DNA from: Glutamicibacter uratoxydans
GTDB lineage: Bacteria; Actinomycetota; Actinomycetes; Actinomycetales; Micrococcaceae
Length of the DNA stretch: 64,000 bases
NCBI RefSeq assembly: GCF_006539925.1
Contig: NZ_BJNY01000010.1
Span: 62,001 to 126,000, forward strand
Direction: 5' to 3'
This document shows positions 6,877-16,955 of this stretch, piece by piece. The translations under genes and the position numbers were made by a program. Each line of letters opens with the position of its first letter. Positions within the stretch are counted from its first letter, which is position 1. The notes beneath the pieces were generated by a model. That model was not told where the DNA came from. It was given only the letters and a program-made list of their open reading frames with translations, and did not search any database.

Positions 6877-8568
6877 TCAGATTCCGAGATCCCTAACGAT
6901 GCCCCTGCCAGTTTCTCGTCCGCTGAATAAACACCCTCCAAGGAACGTTCCTTCTAGCGCGTTGTATCCATGCATTCCACCGCCGCCGAACCCGCTGGCC
7001 TCTCCCGCAGCGTAGAGGCCTGTCAAAGCAGTACCGTCAGATTTCAGCGCGCGGCCCGATAGGTCTGTCTGTATTCCTCCCAATGATTTTCTCGTCAAGG
7101 TATGCAGCTTGACTGCAATTAGAGGGCCGCTCTTGCCGTCAAGTATCGGACGCGGTGAGACGACGCGCATCAGTCGATCCCCGATATACCGACGGGCGTT
7201 GCGAATGCTTTGGATCTGCGCGTCCTTCGAAAATGGGTTCGCCACCTGACGATCTCGAGCTTCGATCTGTTCGCGTAGTTCTTTCGAATCAATGAATGCT
7301 TCAGGAGCTGAAGCGTTCATTTTCTCCGTGAGTTCTTCGAGCGTGTCAGCGGTGAGAAAGTCCTCTCCGTATTTCAAGAAATCAGACACGGGCTTTGGTG
7401 CGCCGCTGCCGAAAATTCGGTCCTTGATCACTGCCTGTTTATTGCGTTCAGTTATGTCCGGGTTTTGTTCTGACCCGGAGAGCGCAAACTCTTTTTCGAT
7501 GATTCTCTGGTTCAAGACGAACCATGAGTGATCAAACTGGCTTGCTTTCGGACCTGTTCGCAGTATTTTCAATGTTCCGATGGTGTCGTGGCCAGGTATT
7601 CCTGGAGCTGGAAGCCTTTTGCCTTGGGCATCGATCCACAGGGAACTTGGGCCTGGAAGGATTCTGATCCCATGTCCCGGCCAAATAGGATCCCAATTGT
7701 GCACACCTTCTGTGTAATGCCACATGCGGTCGCGATTCACTAGGCGAGCACCAGCTCGTTCGGCGATATCCAGACCACTGCCATCAACATAGGCAGGGAC
7801 TCCAGTAAGCATTCGCTTCGGCGGATTTCCAAGTCGTTCGGGCCAGAATTTTCGAACAAGTTCATGGTTTCCGCCGATGCCTCCGGTAGTGATCAATGTG
7901 GCCTCGGCTTTGACCTCGAACTCGCCGATAACACGACGAGACGAGGCCACTCCACGTGGACTAGCATCAGCGACAAGGGCTTGACCACGACATCCAATGA
8001 CTTGGCCTGCATCTACAAGCAAGCTGGTCACCTTGCAACGGTTGAGAAAGTGCAGCTTTCCTGCCAATTGTGCCTGCACTGCGTGACGGACAAATGGCTC
8101 GGATACCCCAGTCCCAGTACCCCAACAAATATGGAATCTTGGCACAGAGTTGCCGTGGCCCTGTGCACGGCCGTCGCCTCGTTCAGCCCAACCGACGACA
8201 GGGGTCAGTTCGATTCCGTGATCCGCAATCCACGTACGTTTTTCACCAGCAGCAAATTCGACGTATTTTTGGGCCCACTGATAAGCCCATGAGTCCTGAT
8301 CATCCATGCGGTTGAATTGTGCGCTGCCAAGCCAATCAGACCATGCAAGGTCGAATGAGTCCCGCACGCCAAGGTGTCGCTGCTCGGGAGAATCGACCAA
8401 GAATAGACCCCCAAAGGACCAGTGCGCTTGGCCGCCCCAGTTTTGTGAGTTTTCTTGATCGACGACAATTACCTTCAAGCCGACAGAAGTCATCTCTGCG
8501 GCAGCCACCAGCCCGGAGAGGCCTGCACCAATGACGATCACATCGGCCTGAAACTTTTGAATTTCCAC
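6877..8568 (-). CDS. FAD-binding dehydrogenase (COG3573 / ketosteroid-dehydrogenase-like flavoprotein)
   Basis: Flavoprotein of about 563 residues. The N-terminal Rossmann motif VIVIGAGLSGLVAAAE binds FAD. The C-terminus has the second FAD contact LYAAGEASGFGGGGMHGYNA, typical of the fumarate reductase/3-ketosteroid dehydrogenase superfamily and especially of the group annotated only as FAD-binding dehydrogenase. There is no signal peptide or heme motif. The GTG at 8568 is preferred to the ATG at 8754 because the FAD motif starts ten residues later and GGGAG lies upstream. It is divergent from an MFS transporter gene, which may move its substrate. Substrate unknown. Confidence 0.85.
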   Translation of the reverse strand: MEIQKFQADVIVIGAGLSGLVAAAEMTSVGLKVIVVDQENSQNWGGQAHWSFGGLFLVDSPEQRHLGVRDSFDLAWSDWLGSAQFNRMDDQDSWAYQWAQKYVEFAAGEKRTWIADHGIELTPVVGWAERGDGRAQGHGNSVPRFHICWGTGTGVSEPFVRHAVQAQLAGKLHFLNRCKVTSLLVDAGQVIGCRGQALVADASPRGVASSRRVIGEFEVKAEATLITTGGIGGNHELVRKFWPERLGNPPKRMLTGVPAYVDGSGLDIAERAGARLVNRDRMWHYTEGVHNWDPIWPGHGIRILPGPSSLWIDAQGKRLPAPGIPGHDTIGTLKILRTGPKASQFDHSWFVLNQRIIEKEFALSGSEQNPDITERNKQAVIKDRIFGSGAPKPVSDFLKYGEDFLTADTLEELTEKMNASAPEAFIDSKELREQIEARDRQVANPFSKDAQIQSIRNARRYIGDRLMRVVSPRPILDGKSGPLIAVKLHTLTRKSLGGIQTDLSGRALKSDGTALTGLYAAGEASGFGGGGMHGYNALEGTFLGGCLFSGRETGRGIVRDLGI

Positions 8569-8857
8569 TGTCAGCTCCCGAGAGTCACTGTGCCCTGATG
8601 ACCTGAGACTACGACGAACTTGAGCGAACTGCCAGTGACAGCTGTATTGACTAGGAAACAATTCAATGAACAGTAACAGATGTCCGGACACACATACTGT
8701 CCGACTATAAACGGAGGGAAATTTCACAGTTATGAATACGCTGAGCACCACCATCGAAGTGAAACTTAAAACGCCCCCTCGTCTGCCACATCACTAGGAT
8801 TTCCGCAAGGTTGGGATAAACTGAATCCGAATTACTAATCGAAAGGCGAAGGCGTAA

Positions 8858-10075
8858 ATGGCTCAAGCGGTTAGCAGCATTGCGCGAGTGAGCATAAGTG
8901 AGAAGCAGAGCCTCAACCTTATATTCTTCATTGCAGGTCTTTCCTTTGCCTCATGGGCAGGGCGGCTATCTGTCATTGATGCAGTATTCAACTTCTCTGG
9001 GATTGCACTAGGCGCTTTCCTGCTCTGCATGACTACCGGAACGCTGCTCGGGATTGGTCTCATTCCAGCCATCAGCCGCAAGTTGAATACGAAGAAATTA
9101 CTTCTTTACTTGCCACTTCTACTTTCAATTTGTCTCATTTCCCTTGGTTTCGCAATTTCTGTCACAAGAGAACCAAGCATCGCCTTTGTTATTTTATTCA
9201 TTAATGGATTATTCTTTGGTTGCCTTGACATCATGATGAACGTCAGTGGTGCTCGTGTTGAAAGACACTTGAATCGAAGCATAATGCCTATATTTCACGG
9301 ATTCTTTAGCCTGGGAACATTAGCCGGCGCGGGCATTGCCACAGCCACCATCGGGTTCCACATGCTGACTATTTGGCATTTCTCCATTGTTGCCCTGATC
9401 ATCGTTTCCCTCACCGCACTTTCCCAGTTCGGCCTCCAAGGTTGGGAAAACGAGAATTACCGCAAGAACAGTCAGGAATCCCCCCAAACGTCAGGTTCCA
9501 ACCATCAGAAACTTGGAGCCTTGCTGCTCATCGGCCTCATGGTAGCTGGGCTGAGCTTTGCCGAGGGATCAGCGAACGACTGGATTACTGTTGCCTCCGT
9601 GGACGGCCACGGCTTGAATCACGAAGCTGGAGCTTTCATGTTCACGCTTTTCGTGGCGGCAATGACCGCTGGGCGCTTTGCTGGCGGTCGAATGATTGAT
9701 GCCATGGGTCCACAGCGCACACTCATGATCATGGGATCCATCGGGCTGATCGGGTTGTGCCTGTTTATTCTCGGCGACGGAGCACTGGCACTCGGGTTGT
9801 CTGCCGTCATGTGGGGCCTTGGAAGCTCGCTTGGCTTCCCGGTTGGGATGACAATTGCAGCATCCCAAAGCAGCCGCCTTGGACCAAATTCGGTCAGCAT
9901 CATCAGCGCTTTTGGCTACGGCGCGATGCTCGCGGGGCCTCCATTAATTGGATTCATGGTCGACCACATCGGCTTGCCCAACGCCCTCTGGCTGGCCGCA
10001 GGAATTATGGGATTGTCGCTATTACTGACGCCAAAGGCAGCACGTTACAGCCCAAGGGCTCCTCAGCAAATCTAA
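8858..10075 (+). CDS. MFS transporter (YbjJ/fucose-permease-like)
   Basis: Integral membrane protein of 405 residues with about 12 hydrophobic segments. The N-terminus (FIAGLSFASWAGRLSVI) and the segment CLDIMMNVSGARVERHLNR resemble the YbjJ/FucP-like branch of the major facilitator superfamily. A central loop (about residues 195-212) divides the halves. The first 500 bp use noticeably AT-richer codons (TTA, ATT, ATA) than neighbouring genes, a sign of acquisition. The stop overlaps that of the converging Lrp gene by two or three bases. Substrate not predictable. Confidence 0.85.
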   Translation: MAQAVSSIARVSISEKQSLNLIFFIAGLSFASWAGRLSVIDAVFNFSGIALGAFLLCMTTGTLLGIGLIPAISRKLNTKKLLLYLPLLLSICLISLGFAISVTREPSIAFVILFINGLFFGCLDIMMNVSGARVERHLNRSIMPIFHGFFSLGTLAGAGIATATIGFHMLTIWHFSIVALIIVSLTALSQFGLQGWENENYRKNSQESPQTSGSNHQKLGALLLIGLMVAGLSFAEGSANDWITVASVDGHGLNHEAGAFMFTLFVAAMTAGRFAGGRMIDAMGPQRTLMIMGSIGLIGLCLFILGDGALALGLSAVMWGLGSSLGFPVGMTIAASQSSRLGPNSVSIISAFGYGAMLAGPPLIGFMVDHIGLPNALWLAAGIMGLSLLLTPKAARYSPRAPQQI

Positions 10076-11412: not shown

Positions 11413-11449
11413 CTTGAACAGTGATCAAGAAAATTGAACAGTGATCAAG
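11413..11449 (+). promoter_or_regulatory. Tandem operator-like palindromes upstream of the biotin transporter operon
   Basis: The 16-mer TTGAACAGTGATCAAG occurs twice (11414-11429 and 11434-11449), exactly 20 bp apart. Each is a palindrome of the form TTGA-N8-TCAA. The first copy is extended by one base pair (C before and G at the end: CTTGA-N7-TCAAG). As I recall it, the BioQ (TetR-type biotin repressor) motif of corynebacteria and mycobacteria begins TGAAC-N3, which these copies share. BioQ assignment is an inference; the repeat itself is plain. It lies about 100 bp before bioM. Confidence 0.65.
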
Positions 11450-11548
11450 TATGCTCTTTAGCAGTGGAACAACCACTACTATCGACACCGGCCGAAGCTA
11501 ACGTAGAAGCAGAATCTTCGGCACGCATAAGAGGATCGCAGAAACGCC

Positions 11549-12238
11549 GTGAACCTACCCCAGATTCGACTTGAGAACGTCACCGTCACTGTAGAAAACA
11601 GAGACGTCCTCAAGAATGTATCCCTGACGCTCGATGAACGCCGCATTGGCATCATCGGCGCCAACGGTGCTGGAAAGAGCACGCTGTCACGGCTGATCAA
11701 CGGACTTGTCTTGCCTACCCAGGGCGCCGTCTACGTTGACGGTTTGAATACGGCAAAGCATGCGAAGAAAATTCGCAGGGACGTCGGCTTTGTTTTCCAG
11801 AATCCTGCAAATCAAATCATCATGCCACTTGTGGCAGACGACATTGCCTTCGGACTTAAAAATATGGGTCTGGGCGCCAAGGAACGAGATGCTCGCGTGC
11901 AGCAGACTTTGGCTCAGCTGAATATCGCCCACCTTGCCGATCGCGAAAGCCACACGCTATCCGGCGGCGAGCAGCAGATGGTCGCCCTAGCAGCGGTCAT
12001 CGCCATGCAACCACGAACCATTGTGTTTGATGAACCAACAACCATGCTCGACTTGCGCAACCGATTGGGCTTCCAACGAGAAGTGGCAAGACTCCCCCAG
12101 CGCGCCATCGTCGTCACCCATGATCTCGAAATTCTTGAAGATTTCGATCGAGTCTTAGTGGTTACCGACGGCCAGGTGGCATTCGACGGCCCGGCAGATC
12201 CAGCAATTGCGCACTACACGCAGTGGAGCCGAGCATGA
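11549..12238 (+). CDS. bioM: Biotin ECF transporter ATPase BioM (EcfA-type)
   Basis: Cytosolic ABC ATPase of 229 residues that powers biotin uptake with BioN and BioY. Walker A is GANGAGKST (about residues 36-44), the Q-loop VFQNPANQ is the form typical of ECF transporters, the signature is LSGGEQQMVALA, Walker B is TIVFDEPTTMLD, and the switch His is in VVTHDLEI. Only one ATPase is present, as in group I dedicated BioMNY systems. GTG start at 11549. The stop overlaps the bioN start (ATGA at 12235-12238). Confidence 0.92.
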   Translation: MNLPQIRLENVTVTVENRDVLKNVSLTLDERRIGIIGANGAGKSTLSRLINGLVLPTQGAVYVDGLNTAKHAKKIRRDVGFVFQNPANQIIMPLVADDIAFGLKNMGLGAKERDARVQQTLAQLNIAHLADRESHTLSGGEQQMVALAAVIAMQPRTIVFDEPTTMLDLRNRLGFQREVARLPQRAIVVTHDLEILEDFDRVLVVTDGQVAFDGPADPAIAHYTQWSRA

Positions 12239-12843
12239 TCGCCGCAAAAAATACTTCATGGTTGTCCCGAGTCCCCGCGAGCTGGAAATTCGGCAGCCTG
12301 CTGGTCATCAGCATCGCCTTGTATCTCATCAGCTCGTGGCCCGTCCTATTGGTCCTCTTGGCAGCCAGCATCGCCATTCTGGCCACGGCGCGTGTCCGCC
12401 TCTCGCAACTGCGCGGACCACTGACTGCCTTGTCGATCATCCTGGCAATCGTCTTTATTGCACTGGGTTTGCAGACGAGCTGGCTGAATGCTGCGGTGTC
12501 GGTCACCAGACTCTTCACGCTGTGCCTCTTGGCGTATTCGGTCAGCCTCACCACTAGTTTCAATGCGATGCTCGACCTCTTCCAGCGCGTTGCCTCGCCA
12601 TTGCGGCATCTGGGAGCCAATCCTGCACAGATCGCGCTGGCATTGTCGATGGCCATCCGCTTCATCCCTGAGCTTCGGCGGGTCTATTCCGAAGTTCGAG
12701 AAGCCCAGCATGCACGGGGTTTAGGCAATAATCCCCTAGCGGTTAGCGTTCCACTCGTTATCCGAGCCCTGCGCATCGCCGACGAGACTGCCGAAGCATT
12801 GGATGCGCGAGGCTACGATTCGTCTTCCGTCCACGGCAAATGA
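12235..12843 (+). CDS. bioN: Biotin ECF transporter transmembrane protein BioN (EcfT-type)
   Basis: Membrane protein of 202 residues with four or five hydrophobic segments. It carries the two Ala-Arg-Gly motifs that define EcfT coupling helices, in AQHARGLG and ALDARGYD near the C-terminus, which contact the ATPases. ATG 12235 overlaps the bioM stop by four bases. An in-frame GTG at 12223 is possible but less likely. It links BioM to the substrate subunit BioY. Confidence 0.9.
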   Translation: MIAAKNTSWLSRVPASWKFGSLLVISIALYLISSWPVLLVLLAASIAILATARVRLSQLRGPLTALSIILAIVFIALGLQTSWLNAAVSVTRLFTLCLLAYSVSLTTSFNAMLDLFQRVASPLRHLGANPAQIALALSMAIRFIPELRRVYSEVREAQHARGLGNNPLAVSVPLVIRALRIADETAEALDARGYDSSSVHGK

Positions 12844-12891
12844 CACCACTGACTTCATCACCAAGGCAATACACCTTCTAAGGAGATCACC

Positions 12892-13473
12892 ATGACGGCA
12901 ACAACCGTTCGGCCTTCCCAGACAAAGAACACCGTCTATATCGCCATCTTCGCTGCACTGATCGCCGCGATGGGACTAGTTCCGCCAATCACCCTGGGCA
13001 TCGTGCCCGTGCCGATCACACTGCAAACGCTCGGCGTCATGCTCGCCGGTGCGGTCCTGGGACCATGGCGCGGCGCCATGGCCTCCCTGGTAGTCGTGGT
13101 TCTGTCGCTGGCAGGTCTTCCGCTGCTGGCCGGAGGCCGCGGCGGCCTGGGAGTGCTCTTCGGCCCAACCGGCGGATACCTCTTGGGCTGGGTGCTTGGT
13201 TCGCTCGTGATCGGTGCCTTGTTCAAATACTGGGTCATTCGCATTGAATCGAAGCCGGCACAAATCGCCGCAGGTTTGGTCGCGACAATTCTTGGCGGCG
13301 TCATCGTGATCTACGCCTGCGGTGTTCCATGGACCGCGATGACCACCGGTCTGGAACTCAAGACCTCCCTAGTTGGATCCTTCGCGTTCCTTCCTGGAGA
13401 CCTGCTCAAGGCGGTGGTTGCCACACTGGTAGCACTGACCGTCCACCGCAGCTACCGCGGACTGCTCAAGTAG
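12892..13473 (+). CDS. bioY: Biotin transporter substrate-binding subunit BioY
   Basis: Membrane protein of 193 residues, six hydrophobic segments, the biotin-binding S component of the ECF transporter. BioY signatures: VPITLQTLGVMLAGAVLG, the glycine-rich LLAGGRGGLGVLFGPTGGYL, and GSFAFLPGDLLKAVVATLVA. A strong AAGGAG site precedes the ATG. It is followed after four bases by a ligase gene, which suggests co-transcription of uptake and enzymatic genes. Confidence 0.95.
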   Translation: MTATTVRPSQTKNTVYIAIFAALIAAMGLVPPITLGIVPVPITLQTLGVMLAGAVLGPWRGAMASLVVVVLSLAGLPLLAGGRGGLGVLFGPTGGYLLGWVLGSLVIGALFKYWVIRIESKPAQIAAGLVATILGGVIVIYACGVPWTAMTTGLELKTSLVGSFAFLPGDLLKAVVATLVALTVHRSYRGLLK

Positions 13474-13477
13474 CACC

Positions 13478-14917
13478 ATGGACTTCGCCAGTTCTCTGGA
13501 GTTTTGGGCCCGGAGCGCACCAGAACGAATCGCTGTAGCGAACGTTCACGAGGAACTCACCTTTCTCGAACTTGCGCTCCGGGCTCAGGCTTTCTCTCAG
13601 CAGCTGCAGGATGTGGAGGAGGCGCGTGTAGGAATCTGCACCTCAGATCCAGTGACGATGGCTGTGGGATTCTTTGCTTCGGTCTTGGCTGACAAGTCTC
13701 TAGCCATTCTTGACCCCGCCTGGCCGAGTGAACTTTTTCTTCGCCTCTCACAACAGCTTGGTGTCAGATCGGTCATCTCAGAGGTACCGCTGGCAGAAGA
13801 AACAGGATCATTGATGGTCCAGCTCGACCCGCCAAAGGTCCGTCCTGACAACCCGCTACTCCCCCTGACTCAGCATCTCGCGTCGCGTGAACTGCTGGTC
13901 ATCTGCACCTCCGGATCCACTGGACTTCCAAAAGCCATCGTCAGAACCCAAGACTCTTGGCAGCAATCAATCCACGCTGGTGCTGCACTGCTTGGAGCAG
14001 TGCCTTCGGCCGTGACCATCTGCCCGGGCCCCGTCTCCCACGGCCTTAGCCTCTACGCCCTGGTGGAATCGATCGTTACCGGCGGCACCATGATCGCCAC
14101 CGGCCGGTTCAATTTGAGCAGCCTCATTGAGCTGGCGGAGCTTTACGCGTGCACCCGGCTGGTATCCGTCCCTACCATCATTGACAGAGTCTGCAGAGAG
14201 GTTCAGCATTCATCGCTCGCGTCGCTGCGCACGGTCGTCAGCGGCGGCGAACCGCTCCAGCAAGACACCGTCGACCGACTCTTCTCGCTGCCATCGGTTG
14301 AATCTTGCGTCGAATACTACGGGAGCAGTGAACACAGCCTCATTGCCTATCGACACCGTCACGCTCGGGAAGAACCCGGCAAGACCTTCAAAGGAACGCT
14401 TTTCCCCGGAGTCGAGGTCCATATCCACGACCAATCGCCCAACGCCGGATTTGGCTCGCTCTTTGTCGACAGCCCTTTTATCGCCACCGGCTACGACGCA
14501 GGCACAGCCGTGCAGATCGACCGCTGCGGTACCTCAACCGGAATCGGCGACCAGGGACGAATTTCCCACCGCGGCCAACTGGAGTTGCAAGGCCGGGGCG
14601 GATCAATGTTCAACATCCACGGCAATAACATCCACCCCAAGGAAATCACCCTCGCATTCGGCGAAATAGGGCTCCCCGGGGTGAGAGTCGATGCAGAAGT
14701 CAGGGACGGCAGAACCCTCTTGGTTGCCTACGCCGTCCTTGGCCACGCGGCGCTGGAAGAACTGGCAGACCAGCTGGCGCGTAAGCTGCCAACATATAAG
14801 ATCCCCCATGAACTGGTGCTGCTCTCCTCATGGCCGACAACTGCCAGCGGGAAGTCACTTGTCCACGGATACCGGAATTATGAAGAACTAGTCGTGAAGA
14901 GAGTGGCCTTGCGATGA
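13478..14917 (+). CDS. AMP-binding acyl-CoA ligase in the biotin operon
   Basis: Class I adenylate-forming enzyme of 479 residues that should activate a carboxylic acid with ATP and transfer it to CoA. Seen motifs: P-loop CTSGSTGLPKA (about 143-153), A5-like EYYGSSEH (279-286), A7 GIGDQGRI (356-362), A8 hinge LQGRGGSMFNIHGNNIHP (about 370-387) and the catalytic Lys459 in PTTASGKS. It is shorter than typical FadD (500-550). The start lies four bases after bioY, and the stop overlaps the thiolase start (ATGA). Its location suggests a substrate linked to biotin, for example pimelate, another biotin precursor, or biotin itself, but the specificity cannot be read from sequence. Confidence 0.88.
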   Translation: MDFASSLEFWARSAPERIAVANVHEELTFLELALRAQAFSQQLQDVEEARVGICTSDPVTMAVGFFASVLADKSLAILDPAWPSELFLRLSQQLGVRSVISEVPLAEETGSLMVQLDPPKVRPDNPLLPLTQHLASRELLVICTSGSTGLPKAIVRTQDSWQQSIHAGAALLGAVPSAVTICPGPVSHGLSLYALVESIVTGGTMIATGRFNLSSLIELAELYACTRLVSVPTIIDRVCREVQHSSLASLRTVVSGGEPLQQDTVDRLFSLPSVESCVEYYGSSEHSLIAYRHRHAREEPGKTFKGTLFPGVEVHIHDQSPNAGFGSLFVDSPFIATGYDAGTAVQIDRCGTSTGIGDQGRISHRGQLELQGRGGSMFNIHGNNIHPKEITLAFGEIGLPGVRVDAEVRDGRTLLVAYAVLGHAALEELADQLARKLPTYKIPHELVLLSSWPTTASGKSLVHGYRNYEELVVKRVALR

Positions 14918-16092
14918 ATGACGCATATCTCGTCCTTGCCCTGCGCACCCCAGTAGTCCGGGCAGGAAAAGAATTCTCCCGCGTCGGTGCCGAGAAGCTA
15001 TTGGGACTCGTCATTGACGAACTCCTCGAACGGTCGCAGATCGACCCGGCACGAATAGACCATGTCTTTGCCGGAAACGCCGCGGGGCCCGGAGGCAACA
15101 TAGCACGCGTCGCCGCCCTGTCTTCGCGTCTTCCGAACAGCATCGGAGCCACCAGCATTGACGCGCAGTGTGCCAGCGGACTGGAAGCCATAGCATCGGC
15201 TGCTCGCATGATCCGCAGCGGAGAAGCCCATGCTGTGATTGCCGGCGGCGTCGAATCAGTGAGTACGGCACCCTGGCGCATGGAGAAGCAAACCGATCCG
15301 ATGATCCAGCCGCGCCTTTATTCGCGGGCGCGCTTCACCCCGGCGCCCGACCCGGATCCCGACATGGGCGTTGCCGCCGAAAACATCGCGCAGCGTTGCG
15401 GCATCGACAGGGCCCGGCAGGATGCTTTCGCGCTGCGCAGCCACCAACGAGCCCTCCAGGCACTGGCCCAAGGAGCTTTTGACGCCGAGATCGTTGCCGT
15501 GCCGACTTCGGCAGGACTCGTCGTAAATGACACCTGTCCGCGGTCGAATTTGACCATGAAGAAGCTGCAGGCGCTCAAGCCGGCATTCGTCGAAGGCGGT
15601 AGCGTCAGCGCCGGAAATTCATGTCCGATCAACGACGGTGCATCGGCTGTACTGCTGGTCAGCGGGCAGCTGCTTGAGGAACTGGAGATCGGTTTTGCCT
15701 TGAAATACGTTGCGTCCGCTTCTGGAGGCTGCGATCCCGAGGTCCTCGGTCTGGCTGCTGTGCCTGCCTTTGAACGGCTTGCTAGGACCATGGGCGCTTC
15801 TCCCCTGCAGGAAGATTCGTTCATCGAATTCAATGAGGCCTTCGCTGTGCAGGCGTTGGCCTGCCTCGACCAGCTGGGCATCGACGAGCGGCGAGTGAAC
15901 CAGCAGGGCGGGGCCCTGGCCCTGGGGCACCCCTATGGAGCCAGCGGCGCAATTCTCACGACTCGATTATTCTGGCAGGCCCGCGCAGCCTCACGCACTG
16001 GGCAGCGGTCTATAGCGCTTATGGCCGCCGCCGGCGGCACCGGTTCGGCAGTTGCCTTCGAATCGGTCGTTGCGCCGCGGACTACAGGTTGA
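14914..16092 (+). CDS. Thiolase-family enzyme lacking the C-terminal catalytic cysteine
   Basis: Thiolase of 392 residues. The acyl-accepting Cys86 is present in DAQCASGLEA, Asn307 in FNEAFA and His339 in GHPYGASG. The canonical C-terminal motif with general-base Cys (C-x-G-G-G-x-G) reads LMAAAGGTGSAVAFE, so the Cys position is Ala371. Classical thiolases need that Cys to activate acetyl-CoA or CoA, so ordinary reversible thiolysis may be impaired or a different chemistry may be used. The gene overlaps the ligase by four bases (ATGA) and ends overlapping the convergent MIP18 copy by 11 bp. It most likely acts on the CoA ester made by the ligase. Confidence 0.88.
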   Translation: MNDAYLVLALRTPVVRAGKEFSRVGAEKLLGLVIDELLERSQIDPARIDHVFAGNAAGPGGNIARVAALSSRLPNSIGATSIDAQCASGLEAIASAARMIRSGEAHAVIAGGVESVSTAPWRMEKQTDPMIQPRLYSRARFTPAPDPDPDMGVAAENIAQRCGIDRARQDAFALRSHQRALQALAQGAFDAEIVAVPTSAGLVVNDTCPRSNLTMKKLQALKPAFVEGGSVSAGNSCPINDGASAVLLVSGQLLEELEIGFALKYVASASGGCDPEVLGLAAVPAFERLARTMGASPLQEDSFIEFNEAFAVQALACLDQLGIDERRVNQQGGALALGHPYGASGAILTTRLFWQARAASRTGQRSIALMAAAGGTGSAVAFESVVAPRTTG

Positions 16093-16426
16093 ATCCCAGG
16101 GCGCGCATCTGGTCTCTGCCGTCATCGGTGATCCGTTCAGGACCCCATGGCGGAGTCCATACCCAATTCAGGTGGTAGACGGTCACCAACTGCTTCAGTG
16201 CCTGCGAGACCTGTTCTTCGATGATTTCGGTCAGCGGGCAGGCCGCCGTGGTCAGCGTCATGTCGATCTCGAGTACGTTTTCTTCTGAATAGCGTAATCC
16301 GTACACCAGCCCCAGATCGACGATGTTCACCCCCAGTTCGGGGTCGATCACGTCCTTGAGCGCTTCCTCGATGTCCTCCAGCGGTCTGGCAATCCGTGTG
16401 ATGGTGTCCCGCGCGTCGCTCAACAT
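16082..16426 (-). CDS. MIP18 family (DUF59, SufT-like) Fe-S assembly protein, second copy
   Basis: Small cytosolic protein of 114 residues, almost all one DUF59/MIP18 domain: EEALKDVIDPELGVNIVDLG, then TLTTAACPLTEIIEEQV with the conserved Cys, and PPWGPERITDDGRDQMRALG. It is about three-quarters identical by eye to the copy at 16611-16955. Proteins of this family help deliver Fe-S clusters to targets. It sits beyond the SUF operon terminator, so it must have its own promoter; a palindrome lies just upstream. The ATG at 16424-16426 has a TAGGAGT ribosome site. It shares 11 bp at the 3' end with the convergent thiolase. Confidence 0.9.
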   Translation of the reverse strand: MLSDARDTITRIARPLEDIEEALKDVIDPELGVNIVDLGLVYGLRYSEENVLEIDMTLTTAACPLTEIIEEQVSQALKQLVTVYHLNWVWTPPWGPERITDDGRDQMRALGFNL

Positions 16427-16610: not shown

Positions 16611-16955
16611 CTAGATGTTGAAGCCGAGGGCTCGCATCTGATCGCGACCGTCGTCGGTGATCCGTTCTGGACCCCAAGGCGGCATCCAGACCCAGTTCAA
16701 CCGGTGCTCGTCCACAACGCTTTCCAGCGCCTTGGCAACCTGCTCCTCGATGATATCGGTGAGCGGGCAGGCGGCGGTGGTCAGCGTCAGGTCCAAGAGC
16801 AGTGCGCCGTCGTCGGCGTACTTCAGCCCATAAAGCAGGCCAAGGTCGACGATGTTGACTCCCAGTTCGGGGTCGATGACGTCCTTGAGTGCTTCCTCGA
16901 CATCCTCCAAGGGAGTCGTGGTGGCTCCCAGATGCTGTTCGGTCGATTCGCTCAT
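16611..16955 (-). CDS. MIP18 family (DUF59, SufT-like) Fe-S assembly protein of the SUF operon
   Basis: DUF59 protein of 114 residues encoded as the last gene of the suf operon, 14 bp after sufC. Motifs: EEALKDVIDPELGVNIVDLG, TLTTAACPLTDIIEEQV with conserved Cys, and PPWGPERITDDGRDQMRALG. SufT-like proteins support maturation of Fe-S proteins, probably as a cluster carrier or adapter. This is the position such a gene normally takes in actinobacterial suf clusters, so this copy is probably the ancestral one and the copy at 16082 the duplicate. Confidence 0.93.
   Translation of the reverse strand: MSESTEQHLGATTTPLEDVEEALKDVIDPELGVNIVDLGLLYGLKYADDGALLLDLTLTTAACPLTDIIEEQVAKALESVVDEHRLNWVWMPPWGPERITDDGRDQMRALGFNI

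Follow-up and report, generated by a model that had tools for sequence, protein, structure and literature searches.

Why should an operon for biotin uptake carry two enzymes that act on acyl-coenzyme A (acyl-CoA) thioesters? The question is raised by a locus of Glutamicibacter uratoxydans, situated in a stretch of 64,000 nucleotides (contig NZ_BJNY01000010.1, positions 62,001 to 126,000; hereafter the window), in which the genes of a BioMNY energy-coupling factor (ECF) transporter are followed by genes for an AMP-forming acyl-CoA ligase and a thiolase-fold acyltransferase. The answer that we favour, tentatively and from sequence data, is that the operon may be a BioQ-regulated salvage unit for biotin vitamers, one that would rebuild a shortened biotin side chain.

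An association of bioY with such a ligase and thiolase has already been noted in Bacillus and Staphylococcus, and the available portions of three sources (PMC6391492, PMC7235819, PMC11089781) describe yhfT and yhfS of S. aureus and B. subtilis as BirA-controlled genes for putative enzymes. The present comparison extends this association to at least three phyla and to genomes that have no biotin synthase, and shows it enlarged, in some Lactobacillales, to what resembles a complete two-carbon elongation set.

Conservation and regulation of the ligase–thiolase pair

By their layout, the five genes form one apparent operon on the forward strand. The genes bioM (11549..12238), bioN (12235..12843) and bioY (12892..13473) encode the ECF transporter ATPase, the T component and the biotin-specific S component, respectively; the ligase gene (13478..14917; YhfT/PRK07638-related) begins 4 bp 3' of bioY, the thiolase gene (14914..16092; YhfS/PRK06690-related) is joined to it by an ATGA overlap, and the gene 3' of the thiolase is in convergent orientation. 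Coordinates and families agree with an earlier reading of the window made from its letters alone (the sequence-only reading), which had described this gene order with its ATGA overlaps and short gaps; the word 'fused' in its title is inexact, as the genes are co-operonic but separate.

The same reading had regarded the link as accidental should the pair not be conserved next to bioMNY in relatives. Conservation was found: all 18 genus genomes examined, that of the window and 17 others, share the order bioM-bioN-bioY-ligase-thiolase, and each has a thiolase ortholog (61-72% identity, self excluded). At the family level, a single-query ligase search at 1e-40 gave matches in 9 of 120 genomes, and a profile search recovered a ligase of at least 243 bits in 31 of the 120. 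Near this threshold the ligase score alone separates carriers poorly, as the stretch of a 32nd match (G046, 240.8 bits) is free of bio genes and that of G076 (243.6 bits) has them adjoining; gene neighbourhood was therefore used. In 21 of the 25 family carriers outside the genus, the fetched stretch holds bioM/bioN as well as the ligase; the two are convergent in each of these loci, and the thiolase was detected in 18 of them. The other three (L174, L175 and L176) retain the ligase and bioY-bioM-bioN with no thiolase detected there, and the gap in L174 and L176, read by eye, holds an AsnC/Lrp-type regulator and a class-III aminotransferase. The remaining four of the 25 comprise L131 and L170, with bioY elsewhere, L173, at a contig end, and L060, in which the ligase lies at the record end and bioY near the start, so that the two are probably adjacent on the circle.

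Beyond the family, 42 of 346 genomes in a phylum sample matched the ligase profile at 1e-50, and the surroundings of six were inspected. The order is bioY-ligase-thiolase-bioM-bioN in G327, ligase-thiolase-bioM-bioN at a contig end in G422, and bioY-ligase-bioM-bioN with no thiolase in G394; no bio genes surround the match in G273 and G258, and in G009, a family member, the bio genes are off its stretch, with bioY about 35 kb away. A contig scan for thiolase loci, from which the best 80 of 592 stretches were kept (a sample, not a census), returned mostly ordinary thiolases without bio neighbours, together with loci neighbouring bioY or bioM/bioN in Arthrobacter, Paenarthrobacter, Microbispora, Nocardia, Rhodococcus, Mycetocola, Cellulosimicrobium, Fictibacillus barbaricus, Bacillus velezensis, Enterococcus and Shimia biformata. 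The order is bioY-ligase-thiolase in Bacillus velezensis and Fictibacillus, the same followed by bioM/bioN in Microbispora, Nocardia, Rhodococcus and Mycetocola, and that of the window, on one contig, in the alphaproteobacterium Shimia biformata (L212), where it perhaps reflects horizontal transfer. The L212 flanks, inspected by eye, resemble ordinary host genes. In three loci of Nocardia and Rhodococcus (L222, L223 and L224) the ligase next to bioY is short, and another ligase with a higher score lies immediately 3' of bioM/bioN. The pair thus stands beside bioY, in varied gene orders, in Actinomycetota, Bacillota and one alphaproteobacterium.

Phylogeny points in the same direction. The 64 thiolases of the biotin-linked set form a single clade among 131 (support 0.928), with labels set partly by hand: L131 and L170 were counted as linked because they are family orthologs, L321, with no bioY nearby, was assigned to the Lactobacillales set, and L271, which the script had called linked because of a bioM/bioN-like pair, was excluded as a spurious link. 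In the ligase tree, the best split holds all 65 labelled ligases plus nine extras, of which four (L060, L134, L135, L169) are apparently linked ligases missed by the distance rule; none of the other five (L133, L182 and the second ligases of L222-L224) is the ligase next to bioY. An accidental neighbourhood is ruled out by the conserved order, the recurrence beside bioY elsewhere and the single thiolase clade.

A tandem operator of BioQ type (TGAAC-N3-G[A/T]TCA) precedes bioM at 11414..11449 on the forward strand. It consists of TTGAACAGTGATCAAG twice (11414-11429 and 11434-11449, starts 20 bp apart), and these are the only perfect copies genome-wide; the next-best two sit on a different contig, roughly 75 and 130 bp 5' of the bioB start codon. 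The BioQ site predicted in the available part of PMC3398298, TGAAC-N3-GTTCA, is exact at bioB and has one base changed (GATCA) in both copies at bioM. In every one of the 18 genus genomes the exact pattern TTGAACNNNGWTCAA precedes both bioB and bioM, and the 18 together hold it at five further places; the control, TTGAACNNNGWTCAA read backwards, gave two forward and two reverse matches. Since the operator is common to bioB and bioM, the ligase and thiolase genes would seem to be members of the biotin regulon, and this, together with the conserved linkage, upholds the earlier view of a link between the two enzymes and biotin. Another contig of the genome (G000 contig C5:42932-42947) holds a copy of the window operator with two mismatches.

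Among the closest known systems are the yhfU-yhfT-yhfS cluster of B. subtilis, in which yhfU is the name of bioY, and yhfS-yhfT of S. aureus: there too bioY is accompanied by members of both enzyme families and is controlled by biotin, and the thiolases fall in the clade of the window enzyme. A proposal on yhfUTS was reportedly put forward by Rodionov in 2002. The B. velezensis proteins exceed both NCBIfam cut-offs, with 702.9 bits for PRK07638 (the YhfT model, cut-off 518) and 627.2 bits for PRK06690 (the YhfS model, cut-off 498), and the family is therefore that of YhfT/YhfS. The window proteins, in contrast, stay under both cut-offs (111.4 and 290.9 bits), the operator is of BioQ and not BirA type, and a full BioMNY lies in the same operon. 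Intermediate relatives score 187.5 (L058), 212.9 (L171), 255 (L134), 537.6 (L217) and 702.9 bits (L279) with PRK07638, and in the clade of the window thiolase L217 and L279 reach 509.2 and 627.2 bits with PRK06690. Corynebacterium glutamicum BioYMN, whose expression is raised by biotin limitation according to the available part of PMC3398298, has the same transporter families as the window; it differs in gene order, and the word thiolase has 0 occurrences in that paper.

Thiolase active site and the Lactobacillales cassette

Outside the Lactobacillales, readable linked thiolases, that of the window included, are without the second catalytic Cys, which bears out the earlier description of an 'atypical thiolase'. 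In the Zoogloea ramigera thiolase, which has nucleophile Cys89, Ser247, Asn316, His348 and second catalytic Cys378, the positions of Cys89, Asn316 and His348 correspond to Cys86, Asn307 and His339 of the window thiolase, which has Cys237 at the Ser247 position. Among 40 linked-type thiolases, the window included, the nucleophile Cys and the His are present in all 40, the second Cys is replaced by Ala in 20 and Ser in 19 (one unreadable), and 38 have a Cys at the Ser247 position. A larger set of 121 thiolases shows the same division: the second Cys is lost in 49 of the 52 that the script called linked (two, L280 and L271, have Cys, and one has a gap) and kept in 66 of the 69 unlinked ones (two Ser, by deduction the family orthologs L131 and L170, and one unreadable). 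Equivalents of Cys89 and His348 occur in every thiolase of this set readable at those columns, and a Cys occupies the 247 position in 46 of the 52.

A fuller arrangement is found in the Lactobacillales. The Enterococcus ligase, searched against 395 genomes of its order, gave 12 matches, self included, and in 10 of the 12 loci bioY-ligase-thiolase is followed, on the same strand and mostly with overlaps, by genes for HadA-like, HadB/MaoC-like and short-chain dehydrogenase/reductase (SDR) ketoreductase proteins; the cassette of L317 was detected by tblastn. Eight of the 12 also carry a FabK-like enoyl reductase, which supplies candidates for all steps of a two-carbon elongation, and all 12 thiolases have the four catalytic residues. 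The other two loci are L321, with ligase-thiolase and bioY not nearby, and L322, with only birA-bioY-ligase-thiolase; the L322 birA (8035-9012; TIGR00121 above cut-off) lies directly 5' of the rest on one strand. The HadB-like gene has an invariant D-x-N-P-x-H motif in seven sequences, weak Pfam MaoC matches under cut-off in three of four scanned (none in L280), an hhalign probability of 96% to a Fictibacillus MaoC protein and marginal structure matches to HadB (E 0.06). The HadA-like gene gave no Pfam match in four of the five sequences scanned (one weak DUF4299 match) and no structure match, and no acyl-CoA dehydrogenase was recognised among the extra Lactobacillales genes. Fictibacillus has a FAS1_DH/MaoC pair 3' of its thiolase, and in Actinobacterial loci no cassette genes stand beside the pair apart from distant SDR matches.

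The enzyme types recall reverse beta-oxidation (thiolase, ketoreductase, dehydratase, enoyl reductase), from which the Lactobacillales set differs in lying in a biotin importer operon and starting with a CoA ligase, and the window in having the ligase and thiolase alone, the latter without its second Cys. As for control in Bacilli, palindromes resembling a BirA box lie 5' of bioY in 10 of 13 loci, with scores reached by at most 3 of 200 block shuffles; such sites were not found at L313, L320 and L322.

Candidate roles of the pair

The sequence-only reading had pointed out that bioA, bioB, bioD and bioF are missing from the window. Nothing contradicted this, but all four occur on another contig of the genome (C1, locus L080) in an overlapping bioB-bioA-bioF-cytochrome P450-bioD operon, so that the lack of bio genes in the window is uninformative. 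More telling is the distribution of bioB among carriers of the ligase. All 18 genus genomes have it; of the 31 carriers in the 120-genome family sample it is present in 15, namely five from the genus and 10 of the other 26, compared with 23 of 51 non-carriers; it is missing from 16 of the 31 carriers (16 of 26 outside those five) and from 28 of the 51 non-carriers tested. The thiolase stands beside the ligase in 13 of the 16 carriers without bioB. Neither the near-complete other-class carriers G327 and G422 nor the incomplete G394 yielded bioB, and among 13 named carriers (genome completeness not stated) it is present in eight and was not found in five, Enterococcus sp. MSG2901 included. BioY was found in 80 of 80 genomes searched and has no discriminating value.

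On the reading that we favour, BioY would bring in bisnorbiotin, whose side chain is two carbons short; the ligase would form the CoA thioester of the imported acid; the thiolase would extend it by two carbons, with acetyl-CoA as donor or, in enzymes that have lost the second Cys, a malonyl compound; and reduction of the beta-keto group, which in Lactobacillales would fall to the cassette enzymes and in the window organism to housekeeping ones, would then give biotin. Import of bisnorbiotin by BioY is putative, as are the substrate, donor and direction of the reaction. Because many carriers are without biotin synthase, and hence unable to use pimelate or dethiobiotin, bisnorbiotin is the most likely acid, and the ligase and thiolase together with the cassette would amount to acid activation, condensation with a two-carbon unit and reduction, that is, a two-carbon extension. 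The earlier proposal of a condensation on an acyl-CoA thus remains plausible in another form; its suggested product, a pimeloyl-CoA precursor, does not, given how often carriers lack bioB. Slightly less probable is a wider route of vitamin repair through BioY import, a dedicated CoA ligase and a dedicated thiolase-fold enzyme, self-contained in some Lactobacillales and present as a lean pair in Bacillus and Actinobacteria, which would also explain the BirA-controlled yhfTS. One guess is that thiolases without the second Cys take a malonyl donor, as ketoacyl synthases do, and leave the rest of the cycle to housekeeping Fab enzymes; that would account for the lost Cys and for the absence of linked reductases alike. 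Fictibacillus, where the Cys is lost and a dehydratase pair is present, fits this guess only imperfectly. The relevance of repair lies in the abundance of shortened biotin, bisnorbiotin making up 13-23% of human urinary biotin according to the available portion of PMC9106636; if the reading is true, predictions of biotin auxotrophy and cross-feeding from genomes would change. In the open-access literature, no published description of the Lactobacillales cassette or of bisnorbiotin salvage was found.

Several observations weigh against side-chain repair. Microbial assays failed to determine biotin metabolites, as stated in the available portion of PMC9106636, from which it would seem that the biotin-assay organisms do not use them; moreover, no observation favours a biotin ring over fatty acids as what the enzymes act on. 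The window thiolase has Ala371 in place of the second Cys that serves in ordinary Claisen chemistry, in a column aligned to the Cys of 1ulq, and a relocated Cys at the 237 position, tried as a universal explanation, holds only partly, since L134, L135, L221 and L230 have neither Cys. Some carriers (L132, L174-L176) have no thiolase beside the ligase. The cassette is rare, as 12 of the 395 genomes searched in the order have the ligase; the SDRs scanned have FabG or acetoacetyl-CoA reductase as best models and the reductases FabK, all under curated cut-offs, and the HadA-like gene is weakly supported, with an hhalign probability of 54%. Furthermore, tblastn searches of 129 loci found the cassette dehydratases only in the query loci L217 and L280, FabK-like matches outside L280 only in L244, L268 and L274, all without bioY, and SDR matches that are distant only; ketoreductase, dehydratase and enoyl reductase are absent from the window operon.

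The main rival of side-chain repair is fatty-acid elongation without malonyl-CoA. In such a biotin-sparing lipid module, scarce biotin would lower acetyl-CoA carboxylase and malonyl-CoA, and fatty acids from outside or from recycling would be activated by the ligase and lengthened with acetyl-CoA by the thiolase (in Lactobacillales aided by the dehydratase, SDR and FabK-like enzymes), a route needing no biotin. The cassette enzyme types are indeed those of fatty-acid synthesis, the Lactobacillales thiolases are catalytically complete, and biotin-regulon operators are compatible with the idea, as is the existence of carriers both with and without bioB. We nevertheless consider it rather unlikely: the genes accompany bioY, in some loci (L134, L221-L224, L265) lying between it and bioM/bioN, the pair in the window genome adjoins the importer and not the bioB operon, and a thiolase without its second Cys would be a poor fatty-acid elongase. 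That same loss, with the Cys and His equivalents kept and unlinked thiolases largely intact, is what speaks for thioester handling with no C-C bond made, in which the ligase would make biotinyl-CoA, trapping imported biotin or freeing it from derivatives, and the thiolase-fold enzyme would transfer or hydrolyse the acyl group. This is less probable again, as the second Cys is retained in the Lactobacillales relatives, which belong to the same larger clade and mostly have a reduction set alongside, and most linked thiolases have a Cys at the 247 position instead.

Two further proposals connect the pair to biotin synthesis or breakdown. Pimelate salvage or pimeloyl-CoA synthesis, whether by a BioW-like ligase or by condensation of glutaryl-CoA with acetyl-CoA, would feed BioF, and accords with bioB-A-F-D standing under the same operator in the window genome and with bioB throughout the genus. 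It accords far less well with the 16 family carriers, G327, G422 and Enterococcus sp. MSG2901, all without bioB, with the similar rates in carriers and non-carriers, and with a pair adjoining the importer rather than the bioB operon. A pair that supplies pimeloyl-CoA should not persist, importer-linked, without biotin synthase; pimelate activation or supply as the main role is therefore rejected, and we regard the proposal as quite improbable. The BioW-like salvage offered by the sequence-only reading accordingly finds no support: the ligase does not track bioB, its Pfam matches (E 0.001) are to AMP-binding families only, with none to the BioW family, and the best 25 of its 81 NCBIfam models all belong to the AMP-binding superfamily. 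In the available portion of PMC11089781, BioW is a pimeloyl-CoA synthetase and BioZ elongates glutaryl-CoA to pimeloyl-ACP (acyl carrier protein); the window pair resembles them in acid activation (BioW) and two-carbon acyl-CoA elongation (BioZ) for biotin supply, and differs in that the ligase is AMP-binding and not BioW, the second enzyme is a thiolase and not FabH-like, and carriers often lack bioB. Beta-oxidation of the biotin side chain, the valeryl breakdown named earlier, has in its favour that ligase and thiolase would be its first and last steps, and is nonetheless very improbable. Biotin represses the yhfST promoter of S. aureus (PMC6391492, available portion), so that expression would drop when substrate is plentiful, and the extended cassette carries reductive enzyme types. 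Catabolism is thus rejected on the BioQ- and BirA-type regulatory sites and on the reductase and dehydratase types in Lactobacillales.

Gene identities and surroundings

The transporter families PF02632 (BioY, 132 bits), PF02361 (CbiQ; BioN, 52.9 bits) and PF00005 (ABC_tran; BioM, 103.6 bits) all score above cut-off, as befits a BioMNY biotin ECF transporter, and the BioY of this operon is the sole one found in the genome (3.79 Mb, rated 99.99% complete). The bioM gene has a GTG start, and its best NCBIfam model, ECF_ATPase_1, scores 214.7 bits and does not reach the cut-off of 315. For bioN, the ATG at 12235, if taken as the start, gives an ATGA overlap with bioM, the longest open reading frame beginning at 12223; bioY follows 48 bp 3' of bioN. 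The ligase matches PF00501 (AMP-binding, 134 bits) and has the motifs TSG..G.PK, YG.SE, GD and the C-terminal SGK in alignment, and the thiolase matches PF00108/PF02803 (Thiolase_N/C).

In the bioB operon on the other contig, bioF is under its NCBIfam cut-off, though this is its best-scoring model. The cytochrome P450 between bioF and bioD (L080:11476-12672) has a distant BioI likeness (3ejb, 59.9 bits, the 13th-ranked match) and may, as a guess, be an independent pimelate-making P450. Finally, tandem paralogs at 16082-16426 and 16611-16955 of the window adjoin a sufC-like gene; the first matches FeS_assembly_P, and the second is similar to the first.

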